Shown here piece by piece: positions 1-56,252 of a stretch of 64,000 nt of DNA (its first letter is position 1; each line of letters begins with the position of its first letter). The notes beneath the pieces are model-generated. The model was not told where the DNA came from. It was given only the letters and a program-made list of their open reading frames with translations, and did no database searches. Location of the stretch: assembly GCA_017592775.1 (NCBI GenBank), contig JAGFNJ010000002.1, positions 1-64,000 on the forward strand, written 5' to 3'. A program made the position numbers and the translations under genes. Source of the stretch: Candidatus Accumulibacter conexus. GTDB lineage: Bacteria; Pseudomonadota; Gammaproteobacteria; Burkholderiales; Rhodocyclaceae.

Positions 1-1667
1 AGACCGCCGGTACTGTTGTTGGTGACGGCGACGCGGAAGTACACGTTCTGGCCGGCGGCGATGACCGGACCCGTCGGGTCGTCGGCATCGAACCAGTTCG
101 TGCCGTCGGCCGAGACCTGCTTCTCGATCACGACCGCACCGGCGGCGCCGAAGTAGTTGGCATCGTCGGGGGCGACGGTGACCGCGGTGGTGTTCACGCC
201 GTCGGTGACCGTGGCCGTCGCCGACGCCTGGTCTTCGTTCTGGCCGGCGAGTGCCGTATCGGTGATGACGTCGGAGAATACCGTCGCACCGGCAGCGACC
301 GTGGTGCTCTGGTTGCCGCCAAAGGTGAAGTCGTGCGCGGTGTCGCTGCCGACCAGGATGGTGTCGGTCAGGTCGACGGTGGCGGCGAGACCGCCGGTAC
401 TGTTGTTGGTGACGGCAACGCGGAAGTACACGCTCTGACCGACGGCGATGACCGGACCCGTCGGGTCGTCGGCATCGAACCAGTTCGTGCCGTCGGCCGA
501 GACCTGCTTCTCGATCACGACCGCACCGGCGGCGCCGAAGTAGTTGGCGTCGTCGGGGGTGACGGTGACCGGCGTGGTGTTCACGCCGTCGGTGACCGTG
601 GCCGTCGCGGAGGCCTGGTCTTCGTTCTGGCCGGCGAGTGCCGTATCGGTGATGACGTCGGAGAATACCGTCGCACCGGCAGCGACCGTGGTGCTCTGCG
701 CGCCGCCGAACTTGAAGTCATGCGGGCTGTCGCTGCCGACCAGGATGGTGTCGGTCAGGTCGACGGTGGCGGTGAGACCGCCGGTACTATTGTTGGTGAC
801 GGCAACGCGGAAGTACACGTTCTGGCCGGCGGCGATGACCGGACCCGTCGGGTCGTCGGCATCGGTCCAGTTCGTGCCGTCGGCCGAGACTTGCTTCTCG
901 ATCGACACGGCACCCACACCGCCAAAGTAGTTCGCATCGTCCGGCGCCACCGTCAGCGTAATGGCTCCCGCTTGTGCTGTGGCGGAAGCCTGGTCTCTGT
1001 GGGGTCCGGCTGTAGCAATGTCGGCAATGACGTTGGTGTAGGCCGTCGCGCCAACAGCCACAGTGGTGGTTTGATTGTTGCCGACTCCGAACGTGAAGTT
1101 GTGTGCGGGATCGGTACCCACGAGGGTAACGTCGCTCAGGTCAACGGTGGCCGCCACGTTACCATTGTTGGTCACTGCCACGCGGTAGTAAACGTTTTCA
1201 CCGACCAGGATGGTCGGCCCGTCTGGGCTGTCGGCATCCAGCCAGCTGCCTGCCAGACCGGTGGCCGAAACCTGCTTCTCAATTGTCACCGCACCGCTTG
1301 CGCCAAAATAGTTGGCATCGTCAGGAGCTACGGTGACGGTGCTGGTGGTGGTGCCGTCGGTCACGGTCACCGAGGCGAAAACCCGGTCTTCATTCTGCCC
1401 GAGCAGCGCCGTGTCGGAAATAGTGTCGGTGTAGACCGTCGCGCCAGCGGCGACCGTGGTGCTTTGACTGCCCCCGAACTTGAAGTCGCGAGGGGCGTCG
1501 CTGCCTAGCAGAATGGTGTCGGTCAGATCCACCGTCGCGGGCAGACCACCGCTGTTTGTTACCGCTACGCGGAAGTACACCGGCTGACCGACGGGAATCA
1601 CTGGTCCGGTTGGGTCGTCGGCGTCAAACCAGGTGCTTCCGTCGGCCGAGACCTGCTTCTCAATCGA
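1..1667 (-). repeat. Tandem 127-129 aa extracellular repeats (at least 4.3 units)
   Basis: The phrase EKQVSADG recurs at about 1660, 1280, 898, 511 and 124 on the minus strand. Spacings are 381, 381, 387 and 387 bases. Each unit carries DADDPTGPVI, VYFRVAVTNN, ATVDLTDTILVGSD, STTVAAGATV and a closing PDDANYFG. The units nearest the left edge are almost identical in DNA, while the two inner ones have diverged. This implies recent duplication or homogenisation towards the C-terminus. The acidic DDAN/DADD segments could bind calcium, which is inference. Confidence 0.9.
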
Positions 1668-4040
1668 AACAAAGATGAGCGGTGTCGTGCTCTGGATGGG
1701 GATGGTCACGCCGACAGCGGATGCGGTGCCGGTATTGACGATCTGCGTCGTACCCGGAGTAAGGTCACCGAAACCATCGATAAGGACCTTGAAAGTCACC
1801 TGATACGTGCCACCAACGGGAAGAGGATTTACCGAATCAAGGATTCGGCCGAGGCCGTCCAGCGGGAAGGCGGTTCCTGTGCCATCATCGGGAATGGCCG
1901 TGACGACGCCGGCCGCATTCTTGAAGAAAGTGCTGTTGGCGACGTAGGTGGTGTCGACTGGAAGGTTATCCGTCAGCAGAAGGTTCGGCACCGGGGCCCG
2001 GCTCGTGTTGCTGATGTTGATGGTGTACAGCAGTTCATCACCCGCGCTGACCACTCCGTTGGCATCGTTGTCAATGCTCAACGTGCCGTTCTTGCCGGCG
2101 GAAAACAACGGTAGCGGTACGAGTCCCGTACCCACGTCCAGCCCAGGAGCCCCTGCGCTGGCGGTCAACGGATCCTGCCCCCAAGCCGCAGCCAGCGTTA
2201 CACCGGGCGTGAGGGTGTAGATCAACATCCCGGTCTGGTTCCCGTCTGTCGTGTCGTAGACCTTGGCCCGCTCAAGCTCCCTGAGGGACACCGACGTGTC
2301 ATATTTATTGCCATTGGGATCGGTGTTGGCGCCCGTCAGGGGATCTGCATCGTAATCGATGTAGATGGTGGCAGCGGTATTGCCATTGCCGACCGGGGTG
2401 ACCCAGATTGGGTTTCCGTTTTGGGTTAGGCTCGTTCCCGAGGTCGGATCACGTCCGATACCTAGACCGACGAGGACCTGAGGAGTCAACGACTCCTTGG
2501 GAACGAGCGTGAAGCCCCAGTCCCATGCCTGGTTGCCACCATAGCTGCCGCTGCTTGAAGTGCTGTCGGTAGAATCGGTTGTGGAGAACGCATAGAACTT
2601 TGGCGCCAACTGTGTTCCGGCACCATCCGGATCCTGGGTATAAAAATGCGCGCCATAGACGTCGGGGATGATCTGCTTTGTGTATCCGCCCGCCACACCG
2701 CCCGGGACCGTGATGTTGGCCGTTGCTATGGTGGTGGCGCTGGTTCGATGCTCATAAACGACGGTGATGGCACTGGAAGCGGGGTTGTACAACCAGACCG
2801 TCGTGCCGGCATTTGTGGTGTTCGTTGAGACCGGCGTGTAGTAATCCGAAGACCAGAGGCTGGTCGGCAACAGTGCGGAATCCCTGCTTTCATAGGTTGA
2901 TCCGATGTCACCGGTGAGAAAATCGACCTGTACGGGCTTGTCGGATGTGACTCTTGCGCCGACGTTGACGCCACCATTTACGAAATAGGGCTGTCCCTCG
3001 GTCAGGATCACACCATTGGCATCGCCAGCGTCAAGAAAATCTCCATCAGCATTGACATCCACACTGATTGTCGCTCCCCCTTCACCCGCCATGATATACA
3101 GACCGGTGTACGAGAACATCTGGAAATCGGTTGCGTCAGGGATATTCGCACCGACCGGAACGCGGTATTCCGTTCCCCAACTCTTGGTATCGAACACTTC
3201 CACTGCGCCGGCCAGAAGGGTATTTGAACCGCTAGCCCAGCCAACATGGGTCAGAGCAACCGTTTTGGTCGCTGCAATCTTGTCCCGACCATCGAAGTCG
3301 ATCGCCGTCAGATTGGTGGTGGTGACGGGGTTGTTGAGAACGATCACCTGTCCAGCCTTGATCACATCGCCGGCATTGGTGGTGACACCGGGCGCTGCGC
3401 CATTGCTGATGTTCCCATCCCCCCAGATTTGGGTTCCGCCGAGATTGGCTGCGCTATACAGGTCGCTCGGGTTGGCGATGTCGAGATCGTAACCGTTCTC
3501 CCATTGATCGTAGTAGATGATCGTGTCATTGGAAGACGCGGCAATCGAGACATAGGTCTGCATCGGGTTTGTGGGTGCGGTATCTCCCGTAATGGCCTGC
3601 AGCCCTGCCAGCAACTGGTCTTCCGGGAACGGCACATAGAAGAGCTGGACTGGGGCCGGGTTCGCACTATCAGTGAACGCCGTCGTCGCCGACTCGCCGG
3701 TCGCCACGTCGTCGGCCGTGCCCAGTTGGCGGTCCTCGCCAGAGAAGATCGCCTCGGCAGTGAGCACCAGGGAAGAGTTGAGCGCACTCTGCGGAACCAC
3801 CCAAGTGGTGTCAATGCGCCCGGGCAGCGGCCCGCCGTTGTTGTCGAACGCGCTTGGGAAGGCGCTGGCTACAGTCCAGGATGGATAGATCAGGTCGTCC
3901 TGAGTGCCGAGCAAGCCGTCCGCCCCGAGGTTGACCACTTGAAACCGGATGCCGGCCATCTCGCCAAAGCCCTCTGCCGTGATCGACACGGTCTGGCCCG
4001 GTGCATAGTCCTGCTTGTTGGTTTTCACTGTGGTCGCCAT
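1..4040 (-). CDS. Giant repeat-rich surface/secreted protein, N-terminal 1346 residues (runs off left edge)
   Basis: One uninterrupted minus-strand frame runs from the ATG at 4040 to the window edge, so the C-terminus is unseen. GGAG lies about 10 bases before the ATG. The N-terminus (MATTVKTNKQDYAPGQTVSI) has no Sec signal peptide and begins in an Ig-like strand pattern. Residues about 130-600 form a beta-rich region with motifs such as YYDQWENGYDLD and EYRVPVGANIPDATDF. Residues about 645-777 look like a DUF11-type domain (GDELLYTINISNTS). From about residue 790 there are near-identical 127-129 residue repeats. Lack of a signal peptide plus extracellular-type repeats suggests type I secretion with an unseen C-terminal signal. 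This is inference. A role as adhesin or matrix protein is likely but not shown. The other frames over this region are shadows. Confidence 0.88.
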   Translation of the reverse strand, partial: MATTVKTNKQDYAPGQTVSITAEGFGEMAGIRFQVVNLGADGLLGTQDDLIYPSWTVASAFPSAFDNNGGPLPGRIDTTWVVPQSALNSSLVLTAEAIFSGEDRQLGTADDVATGESATTAFTDSANPAPVQLFYVPFPEDQLLAGLQAITGDTAPTNPMQTYVSIAASSNDTIIYYDQWENGYDLDIANPSDLYSAANLGGTQIWGDGNISNGAAPGVTTNAGDVIKAGQVIVLNNPVTTTNLTAIDFDGRDKIAATKTVALTHVGWASGSNTLLAGAVEVFDTKSWGTEYRVPVGANIPDATDFQMFSYTGLYIMAGEGGATISVDVNADGDFLDAGDANGVILTEGQPYFVNGGVNVGARVTSDKPVQVDFLTGDIGSTYESRDSALLPTSLWSSDYYTPVSTNTTNAGTTVWLYNPASSAITVVYEHRTSATTIATANITVPGGVAGGYTKQIIPDVYGAHFYTQDPDGAGTQLAPKFYAFSTTDSTDSTSSSGSYGGNQAWDWGFTLVPKESLTPQVLVGLGIGRDPTSGTSLTQNGNPIWVTPVGNGNTAATIYIDYDADPLTGANTDPNGNKYDTSVSLRELERAKVYDTTDGNQTGMLIYTLTPGVTLAAAWGQDPLTASAGAPGLDVGTGLVPLPLFSAGKNGTLSIDNDANGVVSAGDELLYTINISNTSRAPVPNLLLTDNLPVDTTYVANSTFFKNAAGVVTAIPDDGTGTAFPLDGLGRILDSVNPLPVGGTYQVTFKVLIDGFGDLTPGTTQIVNTGTASAVGVTIPIQSTTPLIFVSIEKQVSADGSTWFDADDPTGPVIPVGQPVYFRVAVTNSGGLPATVDLTDTILLGSDAPRDFKFGGSQSTTVAAGATVYTDTISDTALLGQNEDRVFASVTVTDGTTTSTVTVAPDDANYFGASGAVTIEKQVSATGLAGSWLDADSPDGPTILVGENVYYRVAVTNNGNVAATVDLSDVTLVGTDPAHNFTFGVGNNQTTTVAVGATAYTNVIADIATAGPHRDQASATAQAGAITLTVAPDDANYFGGVGAVSIEKQVSADGTNWTDADDPTGPVIAAGQNVYFRVAVTNNSTGGLTATVDLTDTILVGSDSPHDFKFGGAQSTTVAAGATVFSDVITDTALAGQNEDQASATATVTDGVNTTPVTVTPDDANYFGAAGAVVIEKQVSADGTNWFDADDPTGPVIAVGQSVYFRVAVTNNSTGGLAATVDLTDTILVGSDTAHDFTFGGNQSTTVAAGATVFSDVITDTALAGQNEDQASATATVTDGVNTTAVTVAPDDANYFGAAGAVVIEKQVSADGTNWFDADDPTGPVIAAGQNVYFRVAVTNNSTGG

Positions 4041-4486: not shown

Positions 4487-5704
4487 CTACTCGGGCCGCG
4501 GGCTTCCCTGCTGGCTAGCGGCAACGGAGTAGGCCAACTGGCTGCGCCGGTGCACACCGATCTTGTCGAAGATGGACCCAAGGTGCTTCTTGACGGTGTC
4601 TGGCGACACGTTCAACTCCGTCGCGATCTCCTTGTTGGTCTTGCCCGCCGCAACACGCGTTGCGATCGCCTGCTCGCGTGCAGTCAATGCCGGCAGTCCC
4701 GTGGCAGCGGGTTTCACGGCTACAGCCTGCGAGTCGTCCCTGGCCAGGACTCGCCCGCAAACCCGGTTCATGATCCAGCGCGGCAGCCAAAGGCCACCCC
4801 GGCTCACCTCGCGGATGGCGCGCACGTAGTGACGAGCAGGCGCCAGCAGCGGGATGCAGCCACGGATTCCTTGCCGCTCGATCTCCTCGACCGCCAGCGG
4901 ATGTGCCTCGTCCCAAAGCAGGACGAACTTTGCATCGCAGGCCACCGCGCGGAGATCGGCGAGGCACGCCACTCCGCAAAGGGCAACCAGCGCCGTGTCG
5001 AAGAGGACCAGATCGACCGGGGAATGGGCTGCGGCGGTGCGGATGTCCCTGCCATTCGCCCGACAGGCACTGACCACATGCAGGTCCGGTTCGACCGTCA
5101 GTCCCGACACAAGGGCCACGGCGAGACCGGGGCGCTGCGAAACGATGAGTACGCGGATGGCGCCGTGATCGCGGGTCCGCGCTGGCGAGGCAGCAGGCCA
5201 GGGCGCGTCCGTATCAGCGATCGTCAGGTCCGGCCTGGCGTGCATTCGACGCTCCACTGTCCGACGGTCGTCCCGCCGCCAGTACCCTGGCTGCCCATCG
5301 TCGCGCCTCCGCGCGATGTGCCGGCGGTCGCTCCGTCGCCGCTCGATCGGCGATCCTGGCAGCTTGCCGGAGCCGCCTTGGGTTGCCTCGCGGCTTGTCG
5401 TATCGTGATGCGGCGCAACCAAAGCCGACGACTTGATCGACGGATCGTTCGCCGCGGCCGACCCAAAGCTCGACGTTTCGCAGCGCTGCCCGTGATCGAT
5501 TGGCGAACCGCTCGGCGCGTCACGCGTCGTGTTCGCGCCCTCGCTGCCTGACCGCCGCTCGGGCAACCGGGCAGCCATGATCTGTTCCGGCTCCATGGCC
5601 GGTGCTTGCCGTCGCGGCGCGCTGGTCGGCGGAGTCACCGTCCTGCCGCTCGTCTGTTGTCGCGTCGTGACAAGCCGGTCGAGATCTTCGCTGTCGGCGC
5701 TCAT
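4487..5704 (-). CDS. LuxR/NarL-family transcriptional regulator with atypical receiver and long N-terminal tail
   Basis: The C-terminus is a clear LuxR-type helix-turn-helix (LTAREQAIATRVAAGKTNKE, then IATELNVSPDTVKKHLGSIF). Before it lies a receiver-like domain beginning IRVLIVSQRPG. The expected Asp is in DLVLFDTAL. The N-terminal acidic pair is absent and the conserved Lys region reads GCIPLLAPA, so phosphorylation may be lost. The first ~190 residues are Arg/Ser/Pro-rich, low-complexity and unassigned. The open frame extends to 6178, but a sigma-54-type promoter at 5823-5838 would put transcription start near 5811. I therefore chose the ATG at 5704 (MSADSEDLDRL, GGAG 11 bases upstream). 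The next gene downstream on this strand is the giant repeat protein, a plausible target. Confidence 0.8.
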   Translation of the reverse strand: MSADSEDLDRLVTTRQQTSGRTVTPPTSAPRRQAPAMEPEQIMAARLPERRSGSEGANTTRDAPSGSPIDHGQRCETSSFGSAAANDPSIKSSALVAPHHDTTSREATQGGSGKLPGSPIERRRSDRRHIARRRDDGQPGYWRRDDRRTVERRMHARPDLTIADTDAPWPAASPARTRDHGAIRVLIVSQRPGLAVALVSGLTVEPDLHVVSACRANGRDIRTAAAHSPVDLVLFDTALVALCGVACLADLRAVACDAKFVLLWDEAHPLAVEEIERQGIRGCIPLLAPARHYVRAIREVSRGGLWLPRWIMNRVCGRVLARDDSQAVAVKPAATGLPALTAREQAIATRVAAGKTNKEIATELNVSPDTVKKHLGSIFDKIGVHRRSQLAYSVAASQQGSPRPE

Positions 5705-5822: not shown

Positions 5823-5838
5823 AGCAATAGTTGTTCCA
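5823..5838 (-). promoter_or_regulatory. Sigma-54-type promoter for the LuxR-type regulator
   Basis: The minus strand reads TGGAACAACTATTGCT. Against TGGYAYR-N4-TTGCW it has one mismatch (A for Y), the exact 10-base GG-to-GC spacing, and a preceding C. It lies about 120 bases before the chosen start and 62 bases downstream of an AGTGT-N11-ACACT palindrome, the usual enhancer arrangement. Confidence 0.6.
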
Positions 5839-5899: not shown

Positions 5900-5920
5900 A
5901 GTGTAAATTTCTCCGACACT
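5900..5920 (-). promoter_or_regulatory. Candidate enhancer site, AGTGT-N11-ACACT palindrome
   Basis: A perfect 5+5 inverted repeat with an 11-base spacer that reads AAATTTCTCCG on the plus strand. It closely matches the palindrome at 51582-51602, sharing AGTGTAA and CGACACT. It sits about 73 bases upstream of the -24 element at 5823-5838. The rest of 5705-6278 holds no recognisable gene; the regulator and the permease diverge from it. Confidence 0.5.
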
Positions 5921-44001: not shown

Positions 44002-45399
44002 TCAGGCGGCTGCCGGCAGGGTCAGGGTGACGCGCAGGCCGTGCAGCGGAGAGACCGCCAGGTCGACACTGCCACCGTAGAGACGGGCCAGTTCGTCGAC
44101 GATGGCCAGACCGAGGCCCGAACCCGGCGTCCGCTCGTCGGCCCGCACGCCCCTGCCGAGAACCGCGTCGCGCTGCGCCGCCGTCAGTCCGCTGCCGTCG
44201 TCGTCGATCGTGATCCGCAGCACCTCACCGTCCCGCTGCGCCGCCAGATCGACGCGCTGCGCCGCCCACTTGCAGGCGTTGTCGAGCACGTTGCCGAGCA
44301 TCTCCTGGAGATCCTGGACCTCACCACGAAAGGCCAGGGTTTCGGGCATCACCGACACCTGCAGTGCGAGCGGGCGCCCGGCGTGAATCCGCCGCATCGT
44401 CCGCAGCAGGCCGGCGATCACCGGTGCCAGCAAGGTCCGTGCCCCCGCGCCGTGGGTCGCAGCGGCCGCCTGCGCCCTGGCGAGGTGGTAGTCGACCTGC
44501 CTGCGGGCCAGCGCCACCTGTTCGGCGATCATCCGCGACTGCTCATCCTGCCTGCCGTGGGCAGCGTTGGCGAGAACGCTCAACGGCGTCTTCAGGGCGT
44601 GCGCCAGGTTTCCCGCCTGCGTGCGGGCGCGCTCGACGATCTCGCCGTTGTGCGCGAGGACGCCATTGAAGTCCTCGACGAGCGGCATCAGCTCGACAGG
44701 AAAGCTTCCTTCGAGACGCTCCGCCGCGCCCTCGCGCACCCGTCCGAGCGCGACACGCAGCCGGCGCAGGGGTGCCAGACCAACTGCCACCTGCACGACC
44801 ACCGCCAACCCCAGCCCACAGCCGAGCAGCCCGAGCGCGAGCCAGAGCGCGCCGCTGAAACGGGCCACCGGCTCGGCGATCAGGCGCTCGTCCGCGGCGA
44901 CGATCAGCCGCCAACGGGCCGCACTGGCAGCCGCCGCGGCCTCGAAACGCACGCTGCGTTCGACCAGCCCGAGCGTCGAACCGGCGGGCCCGGCCAGCCG
45001 GTGCCGGTGCATCTCGCCATCCGCAAGGCCGTCGGCCGGCACGGCGAGAACGCTGTCCCACAGCGAACGTGAACGCAGGACGCCGGTCGCCACCACGCTG
45101 CCGTCGCCGGCGAGGTGATCGATCTGCCAGTACAAACCGGCGTAGGGCCGGCTCAACCGCGGGTCGCTCAACGCCATCGAGAGCGCTGCCCGCCCCTGCT
45201 CGTCAACGGTGAAGCTGGCAGTGAGCTGGTCGAGATGGCTCTGCAGGCTGGCGTAGAACTGCTCGGCAACGTGATCGCGGAACAGCCTGTCGAGACTGAG
45301 GCCGGCAACCAGGAGCGAAGCCGCGACCCAGAACACGGTGCCGGCCAGCAGGCGAACACGCAGCGAGCCGCGCAGGGCGGCGACGCGGGCAATCTTCAC
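44002..45399 (-). CDS. Sensor histidine kinase (PhoQ/QseC-like)
   Basis: 465 residues. An N-terminal helix (LLAGTVFWVAASLLVAGLSL), a periplasmic sensor of about 140 residues, a second helix near residue 185, then HAMP. The H-box is GNLAHALKTPLSVLANAAHG (phospho-His), N-box NVLDNACKWAAQ, G1 DDDGSGL and G2 GSGLGLAIVDELARLYGG. The GTG start overlaps the regulator stop (GTGA). It pairs with the OmpR-family regulator upstream. Confidence 0.93.
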   Translation of the reverse strand: MKIARVAALRGSLRVRLLAGTVFWVAASLLVAGLSLDRLFRDHVAEQFYASLQSHLDQLTASFTVDEQGRAALSMALSDPRLSRPYAGLYWQIDHLAGDGSVVATGVLRSRSLWDSVLAVPADGLADGEMHRHRLAGPAGSTLGLVERSVRFEAAAAASAARWRLIVAADERLIAEPVARFSGALWLALGLLGCGLGLAVVVQVAVGLAPLRRLRVALGRVREGAAERLEGSFPVELMPLVEDFNGVLAHNGEIVERARTQAGNLAHALKTPLSVLANAAHGRQDEQSRMIAEQVALARRQVDYHLARAQAAAATHGAGARTLLAPVIAGLLRTMRRIHAGRPLALQVSVMPETLAFRGEVQDLQEMLGNVLDNACKWAAQRVDLAAQRDGEVLRITIDDDGSGLTAAQRDAVLGRGVRADERTPGSGLGLAIVDELARLYGGSVDLAVSPLHGLRVTLTLPAAA

Positions 45400-46058
45400 G
45401 GCCGCTCGAGCAGTCGATAACCGAGGCCGCGCACGGTTTCGATCAGGCCGGGCGGCAACTTCTTGCGCAGGCGGGCGATGAACACCTCGACGGTATTCGA
45501 ATCGCGATCGAAATCCTGCGCGTAGATGTGCTCGATCAGCTCGCTGCGCGACACCAGTTCGCCGGCGTGGTGGATCAGGTAGGCCAGTACGCGGTACTCG
45601 TGGCCGGTCAGCGCGAGCACCTGTCCACCCACCATCACCCGACCGTTGCGCGTGTCGAGCAGCAGCGGCCCGCAGACGATCTCGGCGCTGGCATGTCCGC
45701 CGGCGCGTCGGATCAGTGCGCGCAGGCGGGCGAGCAGTTCCTCCATGTGGAAGGGCTTGGTCAGGTAATCGTCGGCCCCGGCGTCGATGCCGGTGACCTT
45801 TTCGTGCCAGCCGTCGCGCGCCGTGAGGATCAGCACCGGCGTCGCGCGGCCACCGGCGCGCCATTTGCGCAGAACCGTCAGGCCATCCATCCTCGGCAGG
45901 CCCAGGTCGAGCACGACGGCGTCGAAGGCTTCGCTGTCGCCCATGAAATGCGCGTCGACCCCGTTGTCGGTGCTGTCCACCACATAGCCCGCGACGCGCA
46001 GGCTGCTGACGAGCTGTGCGTTGAGGGTCGGCTCGTCTTCGACGACGAGGATGCGCAT
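45396..46058 (-). CDS. OmpR-family response regulator
   Basis: 220 residues. Receiver: acidic pair in ILVVEDEPT, phospho-Asp in VVLDLGLPRMDG, Thr in ILTARD, Lys in DDYLTKPFHMEELLARLRAL. C-terminal winged helix: LTGHEYRVLAYLIHHAGELV and NTVEVFIARLRKKLPPGLIE, then TVRGLGYRL. It resembles QseB/PmrA-type regulators. The ATG overlaps the PepSY gene's stop (TGATG). It likely binds the inverted repeat at 46489-46525. Confidence 0.95.
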   Translation of the reverse strand: MRILVVEDEPTLNAQLVSSLRVAGYVVDSTDNGVDAHFMGDSEAFDAVVLDLGLPRMDGLTVLRKWRAGGRATPVLILTARDGWHEKVTGIDAGADDYLTKPFHMEELLARLRALIRRAGGHASAEIVCGPLLLDTRNGRVMVGGQVLALTGHEYRVLAYLIHHAGELVSRSELIEHIYAQDFDRDSNTVEVFIARLRKKLPPGLIETVRGLGYRLLERP

Positions 46059-50349: not shown

Positions 50350-51114
50350 TCAGGACGCGGCATCCCTTCTCCGGCGCAGCGCGCCAAGGCAGGCGAGACC
50401 AACACCCAACAGGGCAAGGGAGGCGGGTTCAGGGACGGATGGACCAGGCGGAACGTCCCGCGTGGTTATCGAGAGATCGGCAACTTCAAAGTACGCACCC
50501 GCAAGATAGTTGTCGCCGAGCTGGAAGAAGGGGTGAACCGCGACGAGCGCATCCCAGGTAGCGCTTGCGATCGTCTTGCTGCCGTGCAGGAAATCGGTGT
50601 CGCCATAGCCGGTCTTGCTGACCGTGAAGTCGTAGTGGTTGGCAGAGAAGGCGACTTCTGTCCACAGCCAGCCATCACTCGGAATGATCTCGCTTCCGAG
50701 GTAACTCCAAGCGGTGGTCATGTGTCCGGCGTAGGGAGAAATCGGATCAAAGTTGTTGATCAGATGTACGTGCCCGTCTCCCGTATCGAGACCCGTATAG
50801 ATGCCCGAGTAGCTTCCCTGGCCGTTGAGCCGCCAGTTGTAGCGCAGGGTCGCATCCTGCAGGTTGTATGCAGCGATGGTATGCAGCCCGAGCGAATAAT
50901 TGCTCCCGCCCGTGGCTGTCGTCTTGGTTCCCAGCAGGTGGCCACTGGCGGTGTTCGCCACAGTCGCCGGCCCTTGGTAATCAACACCGCCAAAGACGAG
51001 GTTCGTCTTCTTCCAGTCAGCCACAGCGAGCGACACGTTGGTCACTGCAGCGCTGGCGGCGAAGTTGCTGCCGAAGAGCATCAGGAATGCCGCACAAAAC
51101 TCCTTCTTACGCAT
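50350..51114 (-). CDS. PEP-CTERM sorting domain exported protein
   Basis: 254 residues: a signal peptide (EFCAAFLMLFGSNFAASAAV), a beta-rich lectin/jelly-roll-like body (LRYNWRLNGQGSYSGIYTGL, WTEVAFSANHYDFTVSKTGY), then the C-terminal tag VPEPASLALLGVGLACLGAL with a basic end RRRRD. The tag is processed by exosortase during export of floc/EPS-linked proteins. AAGAGG precedes the ATG. Transcription is probably from the sigma-54 promoter at 51214. Confidence 0.93.
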   Translation of the reverse strand: MRKKEFCAAFLMLFGSNFAASAAVTNVSLAVADWKKTNLVFGGVDYQGPATVANTASGHLLGTKTTATGGSNYSLGLHTIAAYNLQDATLRYNWRLNGQGSYSGIYTGLDTGDGHVHLINNFDPISPYAGHMTTAWSYLGSEIIPSDGWLWTEVAFSANHYDFTVSKTGYGDTDFLHGSKTIASATWDALVAVHPFFQLGDNYLAGAYFEVADLSITTRDVPPGPSVPEPASLALLGVGLACLGALRRRRDAAS

Positions 51115-51213: not shown

Positions 51214-51229
51214 AGCAATATTCATACCA
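51214..51229 (-). promoter_or_regulatory. Sigma-54 (RpoN) promoter of the PEP-CTERM gene
   Basis: The minus strand reads TGGTATGAATATTGCT, a complete match to TGGYAYR-N4-TTGCW with the required 10 bases between GG and GC, preceded by C. It is 100 bases upstream of the start codon. RpoN with the PrsK/PrsR system is known to drive PEP-CTERM genes in floc-forming betaproteobacteria. Confidence 0.8.
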
Positions 51230-51323
51230 GCCAACCGACAGGAATCAGGATCACCACATAAACCAAATGGTTGTACCACTGCCAAGCTCCCGCCCCGAAA
51301 GAGTGCGCAGTTTGCATGCAAGA

Positions 51324-51344
51324 AGTGTAAAAAATGTCGACACC
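51324..51344 (-). promoter_or_regulatory. Candidate enhancer site, AGTGT-N11-ACACC
   Basis: AGTGT, 11 bases ending TCG, then ACACC, centred about 106 bases upstream of the -24 element. It shares AGTGTAA and CGACAC with the sites at 5900 and 51582. Position and form suit an enhancer-binding-protein site. Confidence 0.5.
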
Positions 51345-51539
51345 GCATGATGGCTTTCGCGCGGACGCGCAGTACGAGGGCTCGCCTCGTTGGTCCGCGG
51401 CGCGGGTAGAGTGTCGGTGCAGTGTGCTTCTTCGCCCGCGGGGTCGGATCGTGACGGCTGCCCAGGCGGGCATGCGGCGTGTTTCAGCGACAGTACGGCC
51501 ATGAGGCTGCCAGGCGGTTTGCCCACGGCAACCGATGCT

Positions 51540-51696
51540 GATGAATCACCGATACTGTCGCCGTTCTTCCGCAGCGCACAGAGTGTAAGATTCTTCGACA
51601 CTGCGTGCAGGAGTGTGATTCGGTGACAGCATGTGAACCAGGCCGATGAATCAGCCCTCCTGTCGCCGCTGTACGCCAGTGTCTTTTCCGGACACC
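51540..51696. repeat. Imperfect duplication in the PEP-CTERM upstream region
   Basis: GATGAATCA occurs at 51540 and 51645. In both, GTCGCCG follows at an offset of 17 bases and then an AGTGT...ACAC palindrome (offsets 42 and 33). The second palindrome has a 9-base spacer. The flanking interval 51115-51717 otherwise holds no gene. Confidence 0.5.
51582..51602 (-). promoter_or_regulatory. Candidate enhancer site, AGTGT-N11-ACACT
   Basis: A perfect inverted repeat with an 11-base spacer. It shares AGTGTAA and CGACACT and most of the spacer with the site at 5900-5920. About 364 bases upstream of the -24 element, within reach of DNA looping. Confidence 0.5.
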
Positions 51697-51717: not shown

Positions 51718-54066
51718 TCAGCGGTTCTCGAGCCGATTGTAATCCAGCAGCCCGGCAGTCACCGGCGCCAGCTTGAGGTGCGTCGCCTGCAACTCGTCGC
51801 TGTACTGCCAGAACGCGGGATCGCTGCGGCGAACGGCGAAGCGGTCGGCGAGCGCGCGGTAGTCGTCCGCGCTGCCGAGTTGCCCGATGGCGCGCGCCAG
51901 CTCGCCGATCTGCGAGCGCCGCACGCGGTAAATGGCGTTCGGATAGGCGCCGACGAAGCCGCGGGCGACGGTCAGCGTGTTCTCCTCGGGCAACAGCTCG
52001 CGTCCCTCGCGCAGCAGGCTCGAAACGTTGCTGTGGCCGGTGTTGCGCAGCAGCGTCACGTAGCGCGGTGCGCGCACGCCGTCCTCGATGCGCAGGATCA
52101 CCAGTTCCGGCATCCACGACAGCGCCGCGCCGCGCACCGCGGCGAGGAGTTCGAGATCCGCCTGCAGGGCCGCGTCGCCGAGTCCTGCCAGTTCGTACCG
52201 ACGGTCGGCGACCGGCGCCAGACGCTGCTGCAGCAGACCGAAGAACTCGCGCCGCGCATCGCCACTCCGGAAACGGATGCCGGTCTCGATATCGAAGTGT
52301 GCCAGGCTGCCATAGACGTACTTCTTGACGTCGTCGCTGGCGCCACGATACCAGTCGTCGCGCACCGCCGGCCGCTGCGCCAGCGGCAGGAAGTCAAGAA
52401 AGTTGGACTCACCCTCCATCCGCATGAAATCCATGTACAGGCGCGAGAGCAGCTGGTGGCCGACATTGCCGTAGACGTCGAAGCCGGCGACGAGCAGGTA
52501 ATGAATCCGTTCGAGCAGTGGGTAACCGATCACCCAGCCGGTCTTCGGCACGTCACCGACCAGACCCTTGACGACCGAGGCACTGTCGAAGTGGCGGAAG
52601 ACCGTCAGCGCGGCGTTCGGGTTGTTGCCGTCGCCATCCCAGATCCAGCTCATCGCGGGCCGGCCCCGCTGACCCGAGAGAGCGGCGAGATGAGCCGACT
52701 TGTCCTGCAGGTACCGTTCCTCCTTCTTCGCGTACTCGCGCCACGGTCCGATGATTCCCGCGTCGCTGCCACGCGCCGTTGGCAGTTCGAGAAACCTCGA
52801 CTCGCGCTCGAGAAATTCGTCGGCTGCCTGCCCGGAACCATCGTTGGCGAGGAAGAAGACCCAGAAGCGATCCTCGATCACGTTCAGCGCCACCTGCCCG
52901 CGACACACCGGCCCCTTGATGAAGCCCATGATGGTGAACTCCGCCTCGTCGAGCATGAACTGGTAGCGCGCCCTGACCGGCAAATCCCGGAAGGTGACGA
53001 AGGGGTTGGCGCCAGCGGCGAGCGAGTACGGCGGCAGCTCGCCGACCGGGTAGGCAGGCTGCAGGAAGAGTTCGCGCCAGCGCGCCAGGCGCTTCGCGCC
53101 GAGGGCGTAGGGCATGTGCGTCTTGTCGACGATGCTCTCCTTCTCGCGCTCGAGCCGGTAGTGGAAGCGCTCGCCACCGGGGTCGTCGTAGGGCCGGCGG
53201 CTGGCGATCGGGTCGATTGGTTGGCCCGGCGGCGTGCGCGACCGGACGAGGCGGAAGAAGTGCCGTTGCGGACCGCTGTCGAAGTACAGGTGGGCGAGGA
53301 AGAGGTGCTCGTAGATGTAGCGGCCGACCAGGCGCTCCTTGCGCGAGTCGCCATTGAAGAAGCGCTCCCATTCGGCCACCTGCCGCTCGACCGCCGCCGG
53401 CAGCGGCGGCAGCCCTTCGAAGGGCGCGCCCTGCTCGAGCCACGTGCGCAGAGTGGCGAACTCGCCGTCGCTCACCGCAGGCAGCCCAAATGGCATTCCC
53501 CACAGCGGGTTGGCGGCAGCGAACGAGTCGTACTCCTCGATCCGCGGGCACTGCTGCGCACGGTCGAGCGAGAAATCGAAGGTCGGGGGAAGCACCGCGG
53601 TCTGCGGCAGCGGGTGGCTGTGCTTGAGCTGCAGCGCGCGGTAGAGGACGCTCGCCGCGAGGTTCGCCGCCGGCGCCTGCGCACGCTCGTTGAGGACCGG
53701 GAAGAAACCCTGCGTCCGCCATTCGGACGCCTTGCCGGCGTCAACGAACAGCCGCGCGAGCGCCGCTTCCTGCAAGCGCCCGCCGTCGTACACCAGTTCG
53801 TCGCTGGCGCCGCGCGCCACACCTTCCCAGGCACCAAGCTTCAACTGGCATGGCGCGTCGTAGCAGGCGTGGCAGACGACGCAACGACGCTCGAGAATCG
53901 GTTGCACGTCGCCACGGTAGGAGAGGCCGCGGGTCGGTGCCAGCGGGACATCGAAGCGTTGCGGCTCGGCCGGGCCGTAATGCTGGTCGAGCGTGTGGCG
54001 GGTGATGACGGCACAACCGCCCAGCCCGGCGATCAACAGCAGCAGAAGACTCTTGTCGATGGTCAT
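51718..54066 (-). CDS. cti: Fatty acid cis-trans isomerase (Cti)
   Basis: 782 residues. The N-terminus has a lipobox-like end (LLIAGLGGC), then the covalent heme motif CVVCH at residues 62-66 as in Cti (PF06934). The long C-terminal domain contains YIYEHLFLAHLYFDSGPQRH, DRFWVFFLANDGSG and VYGNVGHQLLSRLYMDFMRM. The family converts cis to trans unsaturated fatty acids in membrane lipids as a rapid solvent/heat response, in the periplasm. The ATG at 54066 begins the signal sequence; the upstream extension is not coding. Confidence 0.93.
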   Translation of the reverse strand: MTIDKSLLLLLIAGLGGCAVITRHTLDQHYGPAEPQRFDVPLAPTRGLSYRGDVQPILERRCVVCHACYDAPCQLKLGAWEGVARGASDELVYDGGRLQEAALARLFVDAGKASEWRTQGFFPVLNERAQAPAANLAASVLYRALQLKHSHPLPQTAVLPPTFDFSLDRAQQCPRIEEYDSFAAANPLWGMPFGLPAVSDGEFATLRTWLEQGAPFEGLPPLPAAVERQVAEWERFFNGDSRKERLVGRYIYEHLFLAHLYFDSGPQRHFFRLVRSRTPPGQPIDPIASRRPYDDPGGERFHYRLEREKESIVDKTHMPYALGAKRLARWRELFLQPAYPVGELPPYSLAAGANPFVTFRDLPVRARYQFMLDEAEFTIMGFIKGPVCRGQVALNVIEDRFWVFFLANDGSGQAADEFLERESRFLELPTARGSDAGIIGPWREYAKKEERYLQDKSAHLAALSGQRGRPAMSWIWDGDGNNPNAALTVFRHFDSASVVKGLVGDVPKTGWVIGYPLLERIHYLLVAGFDVYGNVGHQLLSRLYMDFMRMEGESNFLDFLPLAQRPAVRDDWYRGASDDVKKYVYGSLAHFDIETGIRFRSGDARREFFGLLQQRLAPVADRRYELAGLGDAALQADLELLAAVRGAALSWMPELVILRIEDGVRAPRYVTLLRNTGHSNVSSLLREGRELLPEENTLTVARGFVGAYPNAIYRVRRSQIGELARAIGQLGSADDYRALADRFAVRRSDPAFWQYSDELQATHLKLAPVTAGLLDYNRLENR

Positions 54067-54308
54067 GGCGAAATACCCGGACAGCAGCCCGCACGCGCGG
54101 ACGGGCGATTGTTGACGAGGAGCGAAGCATAGCGAATCCGGCCGCCATTGCGCCAGCCCCGGATACGAGGGCACGACAGCGATGCCGGCGAAAACCCGTG
54201 TTTGCCGCGCGCCCGAAGACAGTTTCCACGATAATAGCGACGGGAGGAAAGCGAACATGCGGGATTCCGAACAAGCCCACCAACTGCTCCGACGACCCGG
54301 CTGGAAGA

Positions 54309-56252
54309 ATGACTTCTGAACCGCTCGACCCAACTCTGGTCTTTGCCAGGACCGCTGCCGGCGAGGAAGCCATGGCGCAGCGGACGCGGGTCGTCCAGCG
54401 CAACAATCGCATGGTGCTCATTCTCGTCGACGGCAATGCGACGGTTGCCGACCTGTGCGAGAAGACGGGCAACGTGCAACTCACCGAGAATGCGCTGATC
54501 GATCTGGAAGCCGATGGCTTCATCGAACGCCGCGCCGAGACGAAGTCGGTCTGGCGGCTCGCCGGCAACGCGGTCAGCCGCAAGCAGCCGCAGCCACCGC
54601 GGCCGCACTCGGAGTTCTCCACCTTCGGCCCGAGCGGTCTGTCGACACCGGCCAGTTCGGGCCTTTCGGGCACGCCGGAAACGCAGATCATTCCCTTCCC
54701 GAACGTGCGGCCCGGCAGAACGGCGCCGCCGACGGAGGCGCCGGCACCGAGCACGCCCGCGCCGAGCACGCTGACACCCAGCACCCTGACACCCAGCACC
54801 CTGACACCGAGCACGCTCGGCTCAGGCACGTCGACGATGGGCGCCAGCAACGCGTCGATCGTGCCGGACGAACTGGCCGCGGAATCGCTCATGCCGGCAG
54901 CGCCCCCGGCCGACGACCGCCCGTCGCTGCTGGCGCGCCTGCGAACCTGGCTGGCACCTGGCGAGAAAGAGGCAGCTACCGAATTGCGGCCGATTCGCAG
55001 GGGCCACCGGCGCCCGACGCTGACCTGGCCAATGGCCACCCTGGTCGGACTGGTGCTGCTCGGCGCAGCACTCCTGGTCGGCGTTCTGCTCTTCCCCTAC
55101 GCCAGCTATCTGCCCGAGGTGGAAGCCGCTCTGGCCCAGAGCACCGGTCGCCCGGCGCGAATCGGCGGCATGCGCGTCAGCGTCTATCCCCGGCCGGGGC
55201 TGCTGCTCGAGGACGTGCGCCTGGGCGACGACGGCGCCGCCGATCAGGTCAGCATGGCTTCGTTGCGCCTGCGGCCGGAGGTGACAACGTTGCTGTCGCC
55301 ACAAGTGGTCTTTCGCGAGGCCGAGCTGATCGGCGTCACGCTGTCGGCCGCAGCCTTCGACAGCCTGGCGCAGGCGCTCGCCGCGTCGGCCGTGGGATCG
55401 GCACGCGGCCGCGTCGTCCAGGTCTCGCTGTCCGACGCCGGCATCACGTTTGGCGACCTTGCCGTTGCCGGCCTCGGTGGCCAGCTGCAACTCACCGCCG
55501 ATCATCTGCTGCAATCGGCCTCGCTGCACTCGGCCAGCAAGAACCTGCAGGTCGAGCTGCAACCCATGACCGGCGGCGGCGTGACCGTCAAACTCGAGGG
55601 GATCGCCTGGCGGCCGGCACCGAAGTCTCCCTATCTCTTCGACTCGCTGGAACTGCAGGGACGGATCTCGGGACCCGAGTTCGTGATCGACCGCATCGAC
55701 GGACGGATCTTCGACGGCGTGCTGCGCGGCAGCAGCGCCCTGCGGATCGGCAACAAGGCGGCGGTGACCGGAGACATCGCCTTCGAGCGGATCAATACCG
55801 CAGCGCTGGTGGCGGCCCTTGGTTTCAACGGCCGCATCGGCGGCGAAGCCAGGGGCAAGCTGAGTTTCTCGGCCAGTGCCGACAGCCTGCCGGACGCGAT
55901 CGCCCGGCTGCAGGCCAGCGGCAGCTTCACCATCCACCGCGGGCACCTGGGCGGCCTCGACCTGGCCGAAGCGGTACGCCGCTTCTCGGTGGTACCACTG
56001 ACGCTCGGCGGAGCGACCCGCTTCGAGGAATTGTCGGGCGTGGTCACCCTGACGCCCGGCGCGCTCCGCTTGTCGCGCCTCAACCTGACCGCCGGACTGA
56101 TGCACGCGACGGGGCAGATCGAGGTCAGCCGCGAACTGCAACTGCGCGGGCGCATGGATGTCATGATGACGCGCCGCCGCACCGACTACACGGCGATGCC
56201 GGTGCTGATCAGCGGAGCCCTGGCGTCGCCACTGACCCAGACGGCGCACTGA
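54309..56252 (+). CDS. AsmA-like protein with cytoplasmic N-terminal winged-helix-like domain
   Basis: 647 residues. Residues 1-90 look like a small helical/winged-helix domain (NRMVLILVDGNATVADLCEK, ALIDLEADGFIER). Then comes a disordered Pro/Ser/Thr linker with tandem LTPST repeats (DNA period 15 bases near 54765-54815). A membrane helix (TLVGLVLLGAALLVGVLLF) at about 240 follows, then an AsmA-like periplasmic part (GRPARIGGMRVSVYPRPGLL, LEDVRLG). Probably anchored in the inner membrane with both faces in use. Divergent from cti. Confidence 0.8.
   Translation: MTSEPLDPTLVFARTAAGEEAMAQRTRVVQRNNRMVLILVDGNATVADLCEKTGNVQLTENALIDLEADGFIERRAETKSVWRLAGNAVSRKQPQPPRPHSEFSTFGPSGLSTPASSGLSGTPETQIIPFPNVRPGRTAPPTEAPAPSTPAPSTLTPSTLTPSTLTPSTLGSGTSTMGASNASIVPDELAAESLMPAAPPADDRPSLLARLRTWLAPGEKEAATELRPIRRGHRRPTLTWPMATLVGLVLLGAALLVGVLLFPYASYLPEVEAALAQSTGRPARIGGMRVSVYPRPGLLLEDVRLGDDGAADQVSMASLRLRPEVTTLLSPQVVFREAELIGVTLSAAAFDSLAQALAASAVGSARGRVVQVSLSDAGITFGDLAVAGLGGQLQLTADHLLQSASLHSASKNLQVELQPMTGGGVTVKLEGIAWRPAPKSPYLFDSLELQGRISGPEFVIDRIDGRIFDGVLRGSSALRIGNKAAVTGDIAFERINTAALVAALGFNGRIGGEARGKLSFSASADSLPDAIARLQASGSFTIHRGHLGGLDLAEAVRRFSVVPLTLGGATRFEELSGVVTLTPGALRLSRLNLTAGLMHATGQIEVSRELQLRGRMDVMMTRRRTDYTAMPVLISGALASPLTQTAH

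Follow-up and report, generated by a model that had tools for sequence, protein, structure and literature searches.

Distances between PrsR-type boxes and predicted sigma-54 promoters cluster at the DNA helical repeat in Candidatus Accumulibacter conexus and its order

Results and discussion

We studied a short oriented motif, TGTCG-N7-TTACA, in a 64,000-nucleotide stretch of Candidatus Accumulibacter conexus DNA (the window, corresponding to C15:1-64000 in a source genome of 4.87 Mb and 102 contigs) and in related genomes. Over one segment of 2.1 kb the source genome shares 81% identity with an Accumulibacter MAG. In the order of the host this box lies upstream of sigma-54-type promoters at discrete distances, i.e., the lengths of the putative loops between box and promoter cluster at the helical repeat of DNA. 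Promoters of this type, whose activator would be PrsR, probably form one rotationally quantised class in which box, IHF-type site and sigma-54 promoter shift by whole turns only.

Boxes and loci in the window

A preliminary description of the window had placed a shared motif at positions 5900-5920, 51324-51344 and 51582-51602. All three sites read TGTCG-N7-TTACA on the minus strand, facing genes, and each is an exact match at the place given. The pattern AGTGT-N11-ACAC(C/T) was also correct for the three sites, but the longer form, AGTGTAA-N8/9-CGACAC, needs amending, as the inner spacing is N7 in all of them. The features of these loci were as follows:

3..4040, minus strand: giant repeat protein (1346 aa or more), an open-ended ORF truncated by the end of the contig; the gene that follows the LuxR-type regulator
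4487..5704, minus strand: LuxR-type regulator of 405 aa with a GerE HTH near the C-terminus (translation; Pfam PF00196, E 2.3e-17)
5823..5838, minus strand: putative sigma-54 promoter TGGAACAACTATTGCT, -24/-12 type (16.2 of 19.2 bits; compound match C15:5823-5918)
5902..5918, minus strand: PrsR-type box 1, TGTCG-N7-TTACA, exact match (5900-5920 above)
50350..51114, minus strand: PEP-CTERM protein gene downstream of box 2 (translation; TIGR02595, 26.2 bits, cut-off 16; PF07589, 28.9 bits, cut-off 20.7)
51214..51229, minus strand: putative sigma-54 promoter TGGTATGAATATTGCT (14.7 bits; compound match C15:51214-51342)
51261..51273, minus strand: IHF-like site CAACCATTTGGTT in the spacer separating box 2 from its promoter (13.0 of 14 against an IHF consensus)
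51326..51342, minus strand: PrsR-type box 2, exact match (51324-51344 above)
51584..51600, minus strand: distal PrsR-type box, exact match (51582-51602 above), 258 bp upstream of box 2

The motif had been thought unlikely to recur by chance. Within the window alone its core is mildly unusual (three matches with up to one mismatch versus 1.17 expected, a count reached by 11 of 100 shuffles), whereas the whole genome bears the statement out, with 27 exact copies compared with 4 of the backward control pattern. Pairs of box and sigma-54 site separated by 45-75 bp numbered 17 genome-wide and none in the control. The motif shared by the window sites is thus confirmed as real. Sigma-54 sites, scored with a consensus matrix (maximum 19.2 bits), showed that the box is oriented: at 25 of the 27 boxes a site of at least 10.7 bits follows the TTACA arm at a distance of no more than 140 bp, while on the opposite side a score of 10 bits was reached at 3 of the 27. 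A functional symmetric palindrome was therefore rejected.

From the end of box 1 to the promoter GG the gap is 64 bp, which is the commonest register (see below), and the first gene downstream is that of the LuxR-type regulator. The giant repeat protein that follows had no Pfam family above its cut-off. Box 2 is separated from its promoter by 97 bp, and the first base of the intervening IHF-like site lies 45 bp before the GG, the usual register for long spacers. A sigma-54 promoter, formerly ascribed to each of the three sites, is present at the first two; the one sought for the distal box was not found (best score 5.1 bits), and this box is too distant for phase assignment. A second box within 400 bp in the same orientation accompanied 39 of 200 modules, i.e., box-promoter pairs, as against 6 of 200 with an inverted one, and such tandem boxes showed hardly any phasing in their spacing (R 0.30, n=40). 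In the window, a full-length gene for a fatty acid cis/trans isomerase (CTI; 51718-54333, minus strand; Pfam E 2.2e-260) ends a short way upstream of the two tandem boxes.

Spacing between box and promoter

We searched 120 genomes of the host's order for the box followed by a gap and GG-N9-TGCT. Gaps of 9-39, 40-70, 71-101 and 102-132 bp gave 7, 132, 69 and 14 matches, respectively, compared with 2, 2, 4 and 3 for the backward controls; the 14 matches at 102-132 bp are about background, so that spacers above 101 bp showed no excess. Five registers near 53, 64, 75, 86 and 98 bp hold 184 of the 201 pairs with gaps of 40-101 bp: 31 pairs at 51-54, 93 at 62-66, 31 at 73-77, 18 at 84-88 and 11 at 96-99. 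The 30 out-of-phase gap values had 13 pairs, versus a background of 10.2 estimated from the gaps of 9-39 and 102-132 bp.

The Rayleigh R was 0.74 for all pairs (n=201), 0.90 for the source genome (n=25) and 0.73 for its relatives (n=176), and in none of the three sets did any of 2000 jittered nulls equal the observed value. The periodogram peaked at 11.25 bp (bootstrap 11.05-11.4) and a line fitted to the registers gave a step of 11.07 bp (95% interval 10.79-11.29, cluster bootstrap with genomes resampled). Three boxes of the source genome with one or two mismatches, which were outside the set used for finding the rule, had gaps of 53, 65 and 86 bp.

A scan of named genomes at gaps of 71-101 bp gave at least 119 stretches and at least 121 pairs; among the matches listed, those from proteobacteria by title gave R 0.70 (n=52), those from other phyla, where chance level is expected, R 0.17 (n=30), and the 39 without a visible title R 0.19, i.e., no phasing. 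In a sample of the phylum (299 genomes) the 24 matches outside the order showed weaker phasing (R 0.40, p about 0.02), and the 13 of them from genomes with at least two matches, a subset picked post hoc, reached R 0.68. We therefore regard the spacing rule as firm for the order, whereas outside it the rule is no more than suggested.

IHF-like sites in the spacer

The 25 modules of the source genome and 175 loci of its relatives, after one exact duplicate was dropped, made up 200 distinct modules. Their spacers were weakly conserved apart from a stretch matching the IHF consensus, against which sites were scored (maximum 14). Forward scores of at least 12.5 occurred in 44 of 195 spacers, compared with a mean of 7.9 and a maximum of 18 in shuffles, and with at most 25 spacers for any of 200 column-scrambled IHF motifs. 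Perfect forward sites were present in 22 of the 195 (shuffles 1.4, maximum 6) and sites in the opposite orientation were also enriched (15 perfect ones versus 1.3 in shuffles).

These sites were not placed evenly: among 125 IHF-like sites scoring at least 11, 58 begin between -34 and -31 relative to the GG and 21 between -46 and -43, so that the two preferred positions are 11 bp apart. Sites in short spacers stand at the first of these and sites in long spacers at the second; the 73-78 class has both. Note that in 70 of the 195 spacers no forward IHF-like site scored 11 or more; that of box 1 is among them (best score 9.5), while the spacer of box 2 has such a site.

PrsR as candidate activator

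PrsR, named earlier as a possible ligand of the motif, is the best candidate binder of the box, judging from its distribution among genomes. The source genome has one PrsR above the NCBIfam cut-off (TIGR02915, C46:24761-26092, 726 bits, cut-off 502.6). A PrsR inside the window was rejected, since this only above-cut-off match sits on contig C46; the response regulator of the window at 45396-46058 is OmpR-type, with 28.6 bits to TIGR02915. A PhoQ-like histidine kinase adjoins this OmpR-type response regulator (44002-46058, minus strand).

In the order, PrsR was found in 33 of the 120 genomes (E up to 1e-130), in 32 of them above the cut-off, and in-phase modules in 38. The two coincide strongly: PrsR is present in 32 of the 38 genomes with modules versus 1 of the 82 others (Fisher p 6e-22), the one exception, G073, having PrsR and no module. 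Six genomes with in-phase modules (G005, G052, G082, G084, G100 and G103; 24 sites) had no TIGR02915 match above the cut-off, either through assembly gaps or through use of another activator. Nine genomes with the motif and no PrsR were re-examined with none above the TIGR02915 cut-off; three of these nine had a single out-of-phase match only. At least five other NtrC-type regulators could be substitutes in the PrsR-less genomes with modules.

Proposed mechanism and alternatives

The best explanation, which we consider very likely, combines the PrsR box, the NtrC-type activator PrsR, a short loop with whole-turn spacing and, in many promoters, a bend by IHF. PrsR, as an activator of the sigma-54 RNA polymerase, would bind the oriented box and contact the polymerase by looping out only about 53-98 bp of DNA. 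Since DNA so short could not twist cheaply, the box would have to face the promoter, and therefore only distances differing by whole helical turns would survive. In many promoters IHF would bind between box and promoter, at one of two places one turn apart, and bend the DNA.

The phase might instead come from IHF alone, with any NtrC-type protein on the box and the IHF bend fixing the positions. The two preferred places of the IHF-like sites speak for this, as does the 73-78 class, in which both IHF registers occur while the sum stays constant; however, many spacers stay phased without a good IHF site, e.g., that of box 1 with its gap of 64 bp, and we find this reading unlikely. That the registers merely descend from a few ancestral promoters, and do not reflect a maintained rule, appears highly improbable: some modules are indeed close paralogues or orthologues, one of them the exact duplicate that was dropped, but the 25 modules of the source genome occupy all five registers, and one site per genome still gave a median R of 0.68 (n=41 genomes). 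In addition, the spacers are little conserved outside the IHF-like element, and a change of register requires indels of about 11 bp.

It is also quite improbable, in our estimate, that the box is bound by a sigma-54 activator other than PrsR. Related regulators of up to 394 bits occur in the six PrsR-less genomes with in-phase modules, and such a protein could act there; a related regulator of 395 bits is found in G046, whose sole pair is out of phase. Against this stand the distribution of PrsR over genomes with and without modules and its presence in three of the other four neighbours of the same genus or family: G055 (beside G005 and G100), G037 (beside G082) and G039 (beside G084). A review-type statement also places the PEP-CTERM genes of Zoogloea under RpoN and PrsK-PrsR (PMC9012009).

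If PrsR promoters are indeed phased in this way, the scattered regulon would be a natural record of DNA looping, from which a helical repeat of about 11.1 bp in vivo could be read. NtrC-type enhancers are held in textbooks to act at almost any distance, which the rule would contradict for PrsR.

Comparison with known systems

The motif itself is already known, because it fits motif 1 of Haft et al. (2006, PMC1569441), the predicted PrsR box. In that report, 99 of 167 PEP-CTERM genes from proteobacteria had upstream of them a 17-nt motif with TTTACA at its end, followed by the sigma-54 site some 63 nt later; PrsR was proposed as its binder, and the spacer was given as mean 62.8 (s.d. 10.6, range 32-92). 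The likeness was judged on the 17-nt length, the 3' end, the distance and the genes; in 156 of 195 modules TTACA is preceded by a T, in agreement with the TTTACA end. As described there, motif 1 and motif 2 are also alike to our set in their PEP-CTERM genes, PrsR genomes and occasional repetition. The motif section of that report has neither discrete registers nor an IHF site, and IHF is unmentioned in its main text. No report of phasing or of IHF at PrsR promoters was found in the open-licence PMC literature.

Helical clustering has a precedent in the Vibrio qrr enhancers (Brunwasser-Meirom et al. 2016, PMC4740811), where 61 enhancers driven by LuxO have loops of about 80-120 bp in steps of about 11 bp. 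Both systems have an NtrC-like activator, sigma-54 and helically clustered loops. They differ in activator and genes, and the qrr loops, in the available text of that study, are AT-rich and periodic with no placed IHF-type site; the PrsR-box set is also larger, with 201 pairs from 41 genomes in five registers. Since such clustering is known for qrr, the PrsR promoters provide another and larger example, in which an IHF-type element is added, and not a new principle.

In promoters of the nifH and glnHp2 type, IHF binds between the activator site and the promoter. Both are among the IHF-dependent sigma-54 promoters cited in PMC4740811. The present set differs from these in that its IHF-type site favours two positions separated by one helical turn, regulon-wide. 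The pepA promoter of Aquincola tertiaricarbonis, with a mapped start, a -24/-12 element, RpoN1-dependent expression and a predicted upstream enhancer (PMC9850573), is a comparable case; spacing and phase are no part of the account given there. The step of 11.07 bp found here is near the two in vivo fits for lac loops, 11.08 and 11.60 bp from two data sets, and exceeds the value for relaxed DNA, roughly 10.5 bp (values from PMC1762422).

Genes downstream of the modules

The preliminary description had proposed that one activator site is shared by PEP-CTERM and sigma-54-dependent genes. The data agree: a PEP-CTERM-like C-terminus was encoded within 1.5 kb downstream of 15 of the 25 modules of the source genome and, over source and relatives together, of 117 of 200 modules versus 3 of 200 when the opposite side of the box was examined. 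The enrichment also holds when starting from the genes. The source genome has 36 PEP-CTERM matches above the cut-off, and of 30 that were scanned, 15 had a box (up to two mismatches) with a sigma-54 site upstream, compared with none of the 30 when the reverse strand was scanned; no box was recognisable within two mismatches upstream of the other 15, which may be under other control.

Within the window box 2 precedes a PEP-CTERM gene, and box 1 the LuxR-type gene instead. Regular membership of the latter in the regulon was not supported, as tblastn over the retrieved loci gave only the gene itself and a weak match to an HTH segment of 70 residues. A box with a promoter at a permitted distance would give a sharper genome filter for PrsR targets. 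A better list of the regulon is useful because PEP-CTERM proteins under such control have been described as required for floc formation in activated sludge.

Where no PEP-CTERM pattern was matched, 57 of 75 script-picked downstream ORFs were searched in Pfam and NCBIfam, 18 that looked short or out-of-frame being excluded; the ORFs were chosen by length, and the frames of some may be wrong. Five of the 57 were PEP-CTERM proteins in Pfam, so the 117 of 200 given above is a lower count. Single matches among the others corresponded to SdrD-like, two-partner secretion, PilZ/YcgR and GGDEF proteins. Downstream of PrsR-type modules there are thus also large proteins of surface or adhesin-like type, a pair for two-partner secretion, and PilZ/GGDEF genes (loci L056 1681-3015, L052 2-1081 and others), so that the predicted regulon is wider than the PEP-CTERM proteins.
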